Origin: Reyranella massiliensis 521
GTDB taxonomy: Bacteria; Pseudomonadota; Alphaproteobacteria; Reyranellales; Reyranellaceae
Direction: 5' to 3'
NCBI GenBank assembly: GCA_945862125.1
Contig: CAMAYC010000007.1
Coordinates: 1-64,000, forward strand
Length of the DNA stretch: 64,000 nucleotides
The first letter of the stretch is position 1, and every line of letters begins with the position of its first letter. The position numbers were made by a program, and so were the translations under genes. The notes under the pieces were generated by a model that saw only the letters and a list, made by a program, of their open reading frames with translations, did no database searches and was not told where the DNA came from. Positions 59,778-63,960 of the stretch are shown here, piece after piece.

Positions 59778-60608
59778 TTATGCCTTTCTTATGGCGCCGC
59801 CAGCCGCAAAATGGGCATCAACCGAGCCCCGCAGCGCCTTCGCCAGGGCGATTTGGTGCTGGCGGATCGTCAGGAGCTTCTCGTCCTGGCGATTGGAAAG
59901 GTAGCCCAGTTCGACCAGGGCCGCGGGGATGTCGGGCGAGGTCAGGACGGCGAAGCCCGCCTGTCGGTGGGTACGTGGCAGCAGGCGGATGCCGTTGCGA
60001 CTGAAACTCTGCACGATAGTGTCGGCCAGCCGGCGCGAATCGTTCACCGTCCCGCGCTGGCTCATGGCGACAAGGGTGCGCGCGACATTGTCGTCCTTGT
60101 CCGAAAGCTTCATGCCGCCGAGGATCGTATCGGCGCGGTTCTCGCGGGCGGCAAGTGCCGCTGCCTCGCGATCGGTCGCCTGCTCCGACAGCGTATAGAC
60201 TGAAGCGCCCCGGACATCGGAATTGTCGCAGGCATCGGCGTGCAGCGAGAGGAACAGGTCGGCCTTGGCTTCCTGGGCACGGGCCACACGTTCGCGCAGG
60301 GCCACGTAGTTGTCGGTGCTGCGCGTCAGCAGCACCCGGTAGCGGTTTCCGGCCAGCAATTCACGCTGCAGCTCGCGGGCGATGGCCATGACGACGGCCT
60401 TCTCCTGCGTGCCGCGCACGCCCTGCGCCCCGGGATCCCTGCCGCCATGGCCGGGATCGAGGAAAATCAGCTTTGGTCGCGGCAGCGGCGTGGGCTTCTT
60501 GACCGACTTGGGGGTCCGCTTGTTGGCCCAGGCGTCGACGCCGCCCAAGCCAAGGGCCGTCAGGCCGGACAAGGCGGCAAGCAGATGGCGGCGGTGGAGG
60601 GTCGACAT
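59778..60608 (-). CDS. N-acetylmuramoyl-L-alanine amidase (AmiC-type)
   Basis: The ATG at 60608 gives 276 residues starting STLHRRHLLAALSGLTALGL, a Tat-like signal with a twin Arg. The zinc amidase_3 domain has IFLDPGHGGRDPGAQGVRGT (zinc His and Glu environment), LFLSLHADACDNSDVRGASV with the second His and VELGYLSNRQDEKLL with the catalytic Glu. It cleaves the peptide from MurNAc during cell separation or recycling. It is divergent from rne, with the same neighbours as in other alphaproteobacteria. Confidence 0.92.
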   Translation of the reverse strand: MSTLHRRHLLAALSGLTALGLGGVDAWANKRTPKSVKKPTPLPRPKLIFLDPGHGGRDPGAQGVRGTQEKAVVMAIARELQRELLAGNRYRVLLTRSTDNYVALRERVARAQEAKADLFLSLHADACDNSDVRGASVYTLSEQATDREAAALAARENRADTILGGMKLSDKDDNVARTLVAMSQRGTVNDSRRLADTIVQSFSRNGIRLLPRTHRQAGFAVLTSPDIPAALVELGYLSNRQDEKLLTIRQHQIALAKALRGSVDAHFAAGGAIRKA

Positions 60609-61101
60609 GGCAAACGCCACTTTAATGTCAGAGGGAGTTTATTATTTTTGCGATATCTTAATCTCAATACAGAAGTTCATTAATAATTTCAAGTCTTATC
60701 AATAAGTTAAAGAAGATTATTCATCTCCCTCAATCTTTTGATTGTCGCACCGTGCCGAACCCCGTATGTTGCGTCTCGCGAGCAGTCGCCGTCGTTCGAA
60801 GCGCCCCCTGTGGGACAGCGCTCCGACGGCAATCCCCAGCCGGGCCAGCGCTGGCGCCCCTTTTTGCAGTGCAAGAACGGACGCGGCGGGTCCGCCAAAG
60901 GATTGTTAGACAGGCGGTGACTATCAGGAACACCGAGGTTGGCAGGACCCAGTTGTGGTCCGGCGGCGCGATGCTTCCCCGTCTTGGCCTAGGTTTGGCC
61001 GTTCGACGGGTTGATGGCGCTCCGTCCCCCTCGCGCCAGAGAGGCGGCTTGGCCGCTGGTCGCTCGCGCCGGCTGGGACCGAACGCCTCGGGAGCGAGCC
61101 C
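60609..61101 (+). other. long leader region of rne
   Basis: About 490 bases with no gene between the amidase and rne starts. The first 140 bases (about 60620-60750) are strongly AT-rich against the GC-rich surroundings and probably hold promoters for both divergent genes, though I cannot fix -35/-10 boxes with confidence. The rest is GC-rich and contains a terminator-like hairpin at 60842-60865. Small open frames here are not convincing. A long structured leader is the known place of RNase E autoregulation in other bacteria. Confidence 0.6.
60842..60865 (+). terminator. terminator-like hairpin inside the rne leader
   Basis: GGGCCA-GCGC-TGGCgCCC forms a stem of about six pairs with a one-base bulge around a GCGC loop, followed by CTTTTT. 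It would act on plus-strand transcripts that start in the AT-rich patch, about 240 bases before the rne ATG. It could be an attenuator or a site of RNase E self-recognition. Confidence 0.4.
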
Positions 61102-63960
61102 ATGGCTAGGCGCATGCTCATTGATGCGAGCCACCCCGAAGAAACTCGGGTGGTCGTCGTCGATGGAACACGACTTGAAGAGTTCGATTTCGAAACGTCT
61201 ACCCGCAAGCCCCTCAAGGGCAATATCTACCTCGCGAAAGTCATTCGCATCGAACCGTCGTTGCAGGCGGCGTTCGTGGAATATGGCGGCAACCGCCATG
61301 GCTTCCTCGCCTTCTCCGAAATCCATCCCGACTATTATCAAATCCCGGTCGCCGACCGCGAGCGGCTGATCGCCGAACAGCAGCGGCTTCACGCCGAAGC
61401 CGACGACGATCACGAGCCGCGCCGCCGCCGGCGCGTCGACCGCTCCGACATCGAAGACGCCCGTGCGTCGCGTCGCGAGGAACCGGCCGCCGAGAATGGC
61501 GCCGAGGAAGCCGCCGCACCTGAAGAGAACGGCCACGTCGCCGAGGCGGTGAGCGAGACCCCCTCGGAATCCCCGGTGGAAGCCTCCTCGGAAGCCCCGA
61601 TCGAAGCTCAGGCGTCCGAAGCCGCCGTTGCCGAACCGGCACCGGTCGAAGCCGCGATCGAGCCCGCCGCCGACGCCCCTGCTCCCGAGCCGCAGGCCCA
61701 GGCAGCGGAGATCGTCAGCGAACGCCTCGACGGTCCCATCCTCGACGGCGTCGAAAGCGCCGAAGCGGCGGTCGCAACTGACACCCCGGTCGAAGTGTCC
61801 GAGGGCGAGCAGCCCGCCGGCGATCCGTCCGAGGCGCCGCAGCCGGAAGTCGTCGTGGAAACCCTGGGCGGCGACGATGCCGTCGAGGAGCGCGAGACGC
61901 GCGAGCGCCGCCGCCGCAACCCGATTCGCCACTACAAGATCCAGGAAGTGATCAAGCGCCGGCAGATCCTGCTGGTCCAGGTCGTCAAGGAAGAACGCGG
62001 CAACAAGGGCGCCGCCCTCACGACCTACCTGTCGCTGGCCGGCCGCTATTGCGTGCTGATGCCCAACGCCGGTCGTGGCGGCGGCATTTCGCGCAAGATC
62101 TCCAATCCCGCCGACCGCAAGCGGATGAAGGAGATGCTGGGCGAACTTGACGTGCCGCAGGGCATGGGCGTGATCCTGCGTACGGCAGGACTCGAACGCA
62201 GCAACATCGACATCAAGCGCGACTACGAATATCTCTCGCGACTCTGGGATTCGATCCGCGAACTCACGATGCGCTCGACGGCGCCGGCCCTCATCTACGA
62301 GGAAGGCGACCTCATCAAGCGCTCGCTGCGCGACGTCTACGATACCGACATCGCCCAGGTGCTGGTCGAGGGCGAAGCGGGCTTCGAGGCCGCCAGCGGC
62401 TTCATGCGCCAGCTTGTGCCGCACCAGGCCAGCAAGGTCGAACTCTACAAGGAGCAGATTCCGCTCTTCCACCGCTATCAGGTGGAGGCGCAGTTCGACG
62501 CCATGCACTCGCCGACCGTCCAGCTCCGGAGCGGCGGCTACATCGTCATCAACCCGACCGAGGCGCTGGTCGCCATCGACGTCAACTCGGGCCGTTCGAC
62601 CAAGGAACGGAACATCGAGGAGACGGCGCTCCGCACCAACATCGAGGCGGCCGAGGAAATCGCCCGTCAGGTCCGCCTGCGCGACCTCGCCGGACTGATC
62701 GTGATCGACTTCATCGACATGGAGGAGACGCGGCACCAGCGCCAGGTCGAGCACAAGGTAAAGGACGCGATGCGCACCGATCGCGCCCGCATCCAGATCG
62801 GACGCATCAGCGCGTTCGGCCTGCTTGAGATGTCGCGCCAGCGCCTGCGGCCGAGCCTGCTCGAGCATTCGACCGAACTCTGCCCGCATTGCGCCGGCAT
62901 CGGCCGCATCCGCTCCATCGAGTCCGCGTCGCTGCATGCGCTCAGGGCCATCGAGGAGGAAGGCGTCCGCCGCCGGGCGACCGAGATCCTGGTCAGCGTG
63001 CCGCCGAAGGTGGCGCTCTACCTGCTCAACACCAAGCGCCACACCCTCTCCGAGATCGAAAAGCGCTACGGCTTCATTGTGTCGGTCGAGGCCGACGACG
63101 AGCTGAACGCCGCCGATTGCGAGATCGAGCGCGTGCGCACGCGTCGCGAGGACCGCGACCGGCCCGCCCAGGAACTGGCCCGCGCCAACTATGATGAAGT
63201 CGCGCGCGAGTTGCCCCTCGGCGACGAGCCGGACGACGTCGAGGACCGCGAGGTCGGAGAAGCCGGCGAGCCTGTCGAACGCAGTGAACGCCGCCCCGAG
63301 GGTGAAGAGGGCGAGAGCCGCGATGGCCGTGGCCGTCGTCGTCGCCGCCGTCGTCGTCGGGGTGATCGCCCCGAAGGCGAAAATGGCGACCGGCCGCCGC
63401 GTGCTGCCGGCGAAGAATATCCGGCCGACGAAAGCGCCCCGAACGGTTCGGCCGAAAACGGCCACGACCATGCCCCGCGCGACGACCAGGATGGCGATGT
63501 GGCCGAAGGCGAAGTTCGCGCCGACGGCGAGCGCCGTCCCGCTGGCGATCGCGAAGGCGATGGCGATCGACGCCGCCGCCGTGGACGCCGCGGCGGCCGC
63601 CGCCGGCGCCGCGAGCCCGGCGAAGGCGAGCCCAGTGGCGAGCACGCGCCGCGTGATCCCGACTACACGTCGGAAGAGTTCGCTTCCGGCGCGCCCGCGC
63701 AACACGCATCGGATGTCGAGCCTTCGGCCCCTCATGAGCACACAAGCCGCGAGCACGAGGCCTACGATCCCGGCCCGCCGGTGAATGTGGAGGCGGCCCC
63801 GCCTCCTCCGCCGCCGTCGGAACCGACCTATACGCCGCCACCGGCTCCCGCGCCGGTCGTGATGCAGGCACCCGAGCCCCCGCCGGCTCCCGTCATTCCG
63901 GTGATCCCGGTGGCGGACATTCCGCCGGAGAAGCCCAAGCGGGGCTGGTGGCGCCGCTGA
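61102..63960 (+). CDS. rne: ribonuclease E
   Basis: The 952-residue endoribonuclease begins ARRMLIDASHPEETRVVVVD. The S1 domain (KGNIYLAKVIRIEPSLQAAF) is interrupted by a long acidic and Ala/Pro-rich insert (about residues 95-275) before YKIQEVIKRRQILLVQVVKE. The DNase I-like catalytic sub-domain has Asp493 and Asp536 in AIDVNSGRST and IVIDFIDME, spaced 43 apart as in E. coli. The Zn-link is CPHC (594-597). The C-terminal 250 residues are disordered with Arg-rich blocks and acidic stretches, ending PKRGWWRR, a GWW motif like the PNPase-binding peptide of Caulobacter RNase E. It starts mRNA decay and rRNA processing. Confidence 0.96.
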   Translation: MARRMLIDASHPEETRVVVVDGTRLEEFDFETSTRKPLKGNIYLAKVIRIEPSLQAAFVEYGGNRHGFLAFSEIHPDYYQIPVADRERLIAEQQRLHAEADDDHEPRRRRRVDRSDIEDARASRREEPAAENGAEEAAAPEENGHVAEAVSETPSESPVEASSEAPIEAQASEAAVAEPAPVEAAIEPAADAPAPEPQAQAAEIVSERLDGPILDGVESAEAAVATDTPVEVSEGEQPAGDPSEAPQPEVVVETLGGDDAVEERETRERRRRNPIRHYKIQEVIKRRQILLVQVVKEERGNKGAALTTYLSLAGRYCVLMPNAGRGGGISRKISNPADRKRMKEMLGELDVPQGMGVILRTAGLERSNIDIKRDYEYLSRLWDSIRELTMRSTAPALIYEEGDLIKRSLRDVYDTDIAQVLVEGEAGFEAASGFMRQLVPHQASKVELYKEQIPLFHRYQVEAQFDAMHSPTVQLRSGGYIVINPTEALVAIDVNSGRSTKERNIEETALRTNIEAAEEIARQVRLRDLAGLIVIDFIDMEETRHQRQVEHKVKDAMRTDRARIQIGRISAFGLLEMSRQRLRPSLLEHSTELCPHCAGIGRIRSIESASLHALRAIEEEGVRRRATEILVSVPPKVALYLLNTKRHTLSEIEKRYGFIVSVEADDELNAADCEIERVRTRREDRDRPAQELARANYDEVARELPLGDEPDDVEDREVGEAGEPVERSERRPEGEEGESRDGRGRRRRRRRRRGDRPEGENGDRPPRAAGEEYPADESAPNGSAENGHDHAPRDDQDGDVAEGEVRADGERRPAGDREGDGDRRRRRGRRGGRRRRREPGEGEPSGEHAPRDPDYTSEEFASGAPAQHASDVEPSAPHEHTSREHEAYDPGPPVNVEAAPPPPPPSEPTYTPPPAPAPVVMQAPEPPPAPVIPVIPVADIPPEKPKRGWWRR

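Follow-up and report, generated by a model that had tools for sequence, protein, structure and literature searches.

In proteobacteria, RNase E governs a large part of mRNA turnover. The window analysed here, i.e. the whole 64-kb stretch of DNA, carries a gene for this enzyme (rne, a name taken from a preliminary description of the sequence) and, divergent from it, a gene at 59778-60609 that we take to encode an amiC-family amidase. An AT-rich island, a predicted promoter and a long 5′ untranslated region (UTR) lie between them, and the parts of this region are collected in Table 1. The preliminary description had drawn attention to the AT-rich patch and to a hairpin followed by a run of Ts, and had proposed that premature termination or RNase E cleavage here could set the level of RNase E. 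A conserved structured RNA, which flanks this hairpin on both sides, had gone unremarked.

Table 1. Features of the amiC-rne region (positions in the window)
Feature	Position	Strand	Remarks
amiC-like N-acetylmuramoyl-L-alanine amidase gene	59778-60609	-	divergent neighbour; ATG 60607-60609
AT-rich island	60618-60735	.	divergent amiC/rne intergenic region, 5′ of the likely rne promoter; relatives share its composition but not its sequence
-35 element TTGTCG	60742-60747	+	17-nt spacer to -10; conserved in alignment; putative motif assignment
-10 element TATGTT	60765-60770	+	conserved; GCGAGC 6-7 nt later in 23/23 genus loci
rne 5′ UTR	60778-61101	+	conserved structured leader of about 324 nt; start predicted from promoter
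P1, 5′ strand GCGAGC	60778-60783	+	predicted 5′ end of transcript
P2, 5′ strand	60784-60793	+	directly after P1; partner 60913-60922
Variable apical domain inside P2	60797-60908	+	much shorter in L022, L023, L116, L117
Terminator-like hairpin and T5 run	60839-60865	+	chance level, not conserved
P2, 3′ strand	60913-60922	+	partner 60784-60793
P3, 5′ strand	60934-60942	+	pairs with 61027-61033, encloses core hairpin
Small hairpin inside P3	60945-60961	+	arms 60945-60949 / 60957-60961; 4/5 pairs changed on both sides
Lower stem of core hairpin	60962-61026	+	60962-60970 with 61018-61026
Core hairpin P4	60978-61010	+	CCCGUC-N-UGGCC-loop-GGCCG-UUC-GACGGG, 1x3 internal loop; upstream of rne in eight families
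P3, 3′ strand	61027-61033	+	pairs with 60934-60942
Hairpin P5	61043-61057	+	between P3 and P1 3′ strand
P1, 3′ strand GCUCGC	61062-61067	+	about 40 nt before start codon; paired position 5 covaries with 5′ end
Shine-Dalgarno GGGAG of rne	61090-61094	+	from sequence
GCGAGC beside Shine-Dalgarno	61094-61099	+	could pair with 61062-61067, competing with P1
rne, RNase E coding sequence	61102-63960	+	gene name from the preliminary description

A DNA search with positions 60609-61350 matched 37 of 41 genomes (the window's own and its relatives). DNA identity spanning the leader and the start of rne is 78-95% in the other genus loci compared, and the amiC protein shares 40-71% identity with that of the window in 22 other genus loci (over 99 residues only in L019). 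On these figures the predicted 5′ UTR of rne is far better conserved than the adjoining amiC. The amidase gene diverges very fast, e.g. in L003 the leader and the start of rne show 94% DNA identity and the amidase protein only 41%; recombination or replacement of amiC is possible.

The low-GC patch of the preliminary description is borne out. The island has 28% GC against 66% window-wide and is the sole 118-nucleotide stretch below 42% in the 64 kb, the next-lowest elsewhere having 44%. The counterparts in relatives are low in GC too: of 23 genus loci, 20 have 24-37% and three have 40-48%. The sequence of the island aligns poorly across these loci. The patch had been placed in the rne leader; instead, it lies 5′ of the likely promoter (60742-60770), a position that rules it out as part of the leader.

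All 23 genus loci share a -35/-10 pair (TTGTCG, 17 nucleotides, TATGTT) that is followed after 6-7 nucleotides by GCGAGCAG; the -10 hexamer is TATGTT in 22 of them and TATTTT in one. Because of this conserved promoter and the sequence after it, transcription of rne should start at about 60778, with a 5′ UTR of about 324 nucleotides. The preliminary description had named a transcription start 3′ of the hairpin as the outcome that would speak against it, and the conserved predicted promoter lies 5′ of the hairpin. A palindrome, CAATC-TTTT-GATTG (60731-60744), overlaps the -35 region. It is possibly a regulator site; in L015 and L018 its outer CAAY/RTTG arms show a paired change to CAAC/GTTG.

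The hairpin itself is present. It has five pairs and a 7-nucleotide loop (60839-60855), with T5 at 60861-60865 starting five bases after it, but it is weak. Our terminator scan of 2 kb yielded two such sites, against an expectation of 2.0 from shuffles. A T-run of at least four occurs at this place in 6 of 23 genus loci and T5 in 5 of 23, and the stretch, which belongs to the variable apical domain, is absent from the short leaders of L022 and L023. Although the short hairpin with T5 resembles an intrinsic terminator or attenuator, we found neither a stem and U-tract above chance nor retention in relatives at 60839-60865, and a terminator at 60839 was rejected. In Synechocystis 6803 a long rne 5′ UTR is cut by RNase E, with autoregulation, and a six-uridine stretch and premature termination are central to that leader, as set out in part of one study (PMC10989929). 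Here, in contrast, the U-run is unconserved and the hairpin stands at chance level. Despite this precedent, and despite the presence of both hairpin and T5, the proposal that premature termination at 60839 sets the level of RNase E is unsupported, and we consider it highly improbable.

The fold of the leader was predicted with RNAalifold from 23 leaders, which gave a multi-helix structure. Its pairs were examined in an alignment (A3) of 32 of 42 diverse family leaders, near-duplicates having been dropped (the rule used did not pick up L118). In A3, 94.1% of the cells are standard pairs, compared with 29-57% when the partners are slid (maximum 56.6%). Changes on both sides are seen at 17 of 53 pairs; shuffles give a mean of 8.1, and none of 500 reaches the observed number. 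A second alignment (A2) holds 59 matches to the P4 model R1 from 67 sources, eight of which gave no match. In the P4 region of A2, which is fitted to the model and leans towards R1, 97.0% of cells are paired (at most 54.4% when slid) and 11 of 19 pairs changed on both sides, against a shuffled mean of 4.1.

The individual helices hold to different degrees. P1 is 100% paired in A3, with one covarying pair, and P2 is paired in 99.4% of cells, with 3 of 10 pairs changed on both sides. The two stems of P4 reach 99.5% and 98.1% and contain four covarying pairs. This hairpin follows the general pattern CCCGUC-N-UGGC...GCCG-UUY-GACGGG and is nearly invariant, with a 1x3 UUY internal loop. The remaining elements (P3 with its side hairpin, P5 and the lower stem of P4) give mixed results, being 87-93% paired, yet covariation is present in them. 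In this conserved fold the first 16 or so nucleotides of the leader are paired, by P1 to a site before the ribosome-binding site and by P2 to the middle of the leader. The stability of the window leader's fold is no better than that of shuffles (z 0.04). In L017 a long stretch that bears a palindrome (CACCTCCCCCACATGTGGGGGAGG) stands in place of the apical helix inside the P2 domain and resembles an inserted repeat element.

These compensatory changes at long-range pairs also bear on whether the conserved block is made of RNA at all. The high DNA conservation of the block, together with the CAAY-RTTG palindrome beside the -35 element in 13 of 23 genus loci, could be read as DNA-level regulator sites or a leader peptide with no RNA structure. 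The compensation across long-range pairs speaks against this reading. Furthermore, the start codon of an open reading frame of at least 8 codons is common to no more than 9 of 23 rows, and an upstream reading frame or leader peptide was ruled out on this count. We give this explanation very little credence.

P1 was followed across lineages with independently set anchors, GCGA 5-8 nucleotides after the -10 hexamer and NTCGC roughly 33-53 nucleotides before the start codon. In 191 leaders the 5′ anchor was found in 111, the 3′ anchor in 126 and both in 108, mostly in Reyranella. For the comparison we used 20 rows that differ in genus or family; f17, f51 and f93 contribute two apiece and f1 four genera, and the 5′ anchor of L239 was set by hand. 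Position 5 of P1 is Watson-Crick in 17 of these 20 rows, against 5.9 expected from shuffling; none of 20,000 shuffles reached this number, a result to which we attach no probability because related lineages are not independent. Position 6 is Watson-Crick in 13 of 20, against 7.8 by shuffling (0.0034, with the same caveat of kinship), and positions 7 and 8 give no signal in the 20 rows. All four pair types occur at position 5: G-C in Reyranella, A-U in g18, g280, f2, f3, f74, f89 and f60, C-G in f16, f17, f41 and Azospirillum, and U-A in f93. Mismatches are found in f38 and f91; a third (f93a) comes from the first of two candidate anchors and is ambiguous, and the match in f97 is a self-complementary hexamer. 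The P1 anchors are present and P4 is not recognisable in f17, f41, f74 and f89. By eye, GCG-N6-CGC in the first 12 nucleotides might fold into a local hairpin incompatible with P1 in Reyranella, Azospirillum, f3, f89 and f93.

The 3′ strand of P1 could instead pair with the GCGAGC beside the Shine-Dalgarno sequence. Neither g18 nor g280 keeps this complementarity, nor do four g1 loci (L022, L023, L116 and L117), so the competitor helix is not general, and sequestration of the Shine-Dalgarno sequence by GCUCGC was rejected as a general mechanism. When single sequences are folded, the probability of P1 exceeds 0.5 in 5 of 32 leaders for the UTR alone, in 2 of 32 with 24 nucleotides of coding sequence and in 3 of 32 with 60, and forcing P1 costs a median of 1.75 kcal/mol. 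When the 5′ 16 nucleotides are deleted (with 24 nucleotides of coding sequence), only 13 of 32 leaders lose more than 0.1 in predicted access to the Shine-Dalgarno sequence, and in 5 the access rises. A switch in which P1 would free the ribosome site is a possible model, one that single-sequence folding does not favour in most species. A more elaborate version is a bistable switch on the transcript's own 5′ end, in which the initial hexamer GCGANN would have two options, to pair locally as a 5′ hairpin or to clamp NNUCGC by the ribosome-binding site. Cleavage by RNase E would remove or free the 5′ strand, and a cut about 200 nucleotides distant would thus let the enzyme reset how its own mRNA is translated. 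We put this version forward tentatively and think it rather unlikely.

The association with rne is close wherever P4 is recognised. An exact-pattern scan for P4 in one genome per species (84,980 species) found 65 loci, of which 54 lie 120-148 nucleotides upstream of rne on the same strand; in the remaining 11, mostly from actinobacteria, rne was not found in the locus. The pattern is carried by Reyranella, Vineibacter terrae, Enhydrobacter aerosaccus and several Azospirillum, among others. In the window's own genome R1 gives a single match at E up to 1, and in its family the match adjoins rne in 57 of 61 genomes. In three of the other four no rne was found, and the fourth (G416) has rne, a sub-threshold match and a leader visible by eye.

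In 386 genomes of the class, with E up to 0.05 as the limit, R1 matched 16 times. Eleven of these matches adjoin rne; the other five (E 0.014-0.04) have no rne in the locus and were taken as chance. A further model, R2, matched in 38 of the 386 genomes at E up to 0.5, and 15 matches were located beside rne, in f1, f3, f16, f51, f60, f93 and f98. In the follow-up of R2, 16 loci were examined, 12 without rne were taken as chance and 12 further places were left out of the count. Confirmed P4 members come from eight families, counting f2 (L024) and including Azospirillum. Relatives of the N-terminus of rne were found in 141 of 144 class genomes. Since P4 was located in only 15 of the 386 sampled genomes, most alphaproteobacteria appear to lack a recognisable form of it. 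The junction, however, can be seen in several families where the core hairpin is hardly recognised, if at all, and the leader may therefore be more widespread than R2 detects. Examples are the regions before rne in L129, L135 and L141, whose junction is of the GAACCCGAAGCC or GAAACCC(A/G)AAGCC type. Locus L281, from an AT-rich genome of f98 (G121), keeps a UGGC...GCCGUUUGACGG core and a GAAAC junction in a leader that is otherwise AT-rich.

The best-known counterpart is rne5 (RF00040) of enterobacteria, in which RNase E binds a hairpin in the element and feedback-regulates rne. As a positive control, the E. coli rne leader was recovered as rne5 at 260.1 bits. Both RNAs are long structured 5′ UTRs of rne (361 nucleotides in E. 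coli), and the element here is directly upstream of rne, with its transcription predicted from the promoter. A long-range helix closing a multibranched domain not far from the start codon is a further feature shared with rne5; in the leader here, however, the very 5′ end is a strand of P1. The core hairpin also differs in sequence, and neither the rne5 covariance model nor any other Rfam 15 family matches the window leader (60600-61200, E up to 5). A second element, rne-II (RF01756), lies in the rne leader of Pseudomonadales. It is listed as a candidate structured RNA in a table of one paper (PMC2864571), and it matches neither the window leader (E up to 5) nor 18 other sources from related lineages (E up to 0.5). 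The rne leaders of these 18 sources have no Rfam match of any kind; a sub-threshold asponA hit in L160 is unrelated and lies elsewhere. In the literature searched, where coverage of subscription papers was slight, we found no description of an alphaproteobacterial rne leader motif. Judged by sequence, the leader RNA is unrelated to rne5 and rne-II, and its kind is absent from Rfam. As parts of the rne leader with a regulatory role, neither the AT-rich island nor the hairpin has stood up; the preliminary idea of a long leader, E. coli-like in design and different in sequence, fits with a covarying RNA structure specific to rne.

We favour, with moderate confidence, the view that the 5′ UTR is a cis-acting, rne-specific regulator, most likely an autoregulatory leader that senses RNase E. 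Feedback regulation of rne through its 5′ UTR in E. coli is described in parts of two papers (PMC10989929, PMC3997798). RNase E is the most likely ligand because the element is found only upstream of rne and because E. coli and Synechocystis both regulate through the rne 5′ UTR. RNase E would bind P4 or the junction. When the enzyme is scarce, the leader would stay folded, its 5′ end would be protected and rne would be translated. When it is plentiful, it would cut the leader in the less structured apical domain; putative cleavage somewhere in the leader is possible. The clamp would then be lost, a 5′-monophosphate end would appear and the rne mRNA would decay. The GCUCGC set free in this way could, in most Reyranella, also mask the site beside the Shine-Dalgarno sequence.

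The leader might also answer to a different ligand, e.g. a small molecule (as a riboswitch), another RNA-binding protein or a small RNA. The topology is riboswitch-like, with a junction closed by P1, a conserved unpaired GAAACC-type segment in it and near-invariant residues in P4, and the likeness to metabolite riboswitches extends to covarying structure in a 5′ UTR. However, metabolite riboswitches usually serve several genes. The same element was not found before several pathway genes here: every P4 pattern locus that can be assigned to a gene precedes rne (54 of 65, the other 11 being without rne), the window's own genome has its one match, and the leader is without an Rfam match. We regard another ligand as a less probable alternative that still deserves attention. 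It is also conceivable that the leader mainly protects the mRNA, with P1 and P2 locking the 5′ end against 5′-end-dependent decay and no sensing involved, as the pairing of the first 16 nucleotides and the place of P1 at the predicted +1 would suggest. A stabilising clamp, however, could do without a near-invariant P4 and its UUY internal loop, and it would not have to be confined to rne; we judge purely protective action to be distinctly unlikely.

According to PMC10989929, little is known of how bacteria unlike E. coli set their level of RNase E. The long folded leader of the rne mRNA in Reyranella and several other alphaproteobacterial families probably serves the enzyme in sensing and limiting its own production. 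With its covariation support, its restriction to rne and its lack of an Rfam match, it offers something that can be put to the test in Azospirillum brasilense, a culturable model. The long-range clamp of the 5′ end, if real, would mean that one helix links protection of the mRNA's 5′ end to translation. If the switch on the 5′ end were true, it would represent an independently evolved class of RNase E autoregulators, spread across many alphaproteobacterial families. More broadly, the leader would point to more than one origin for RNase E leaders, with sequences unrelated to each other.
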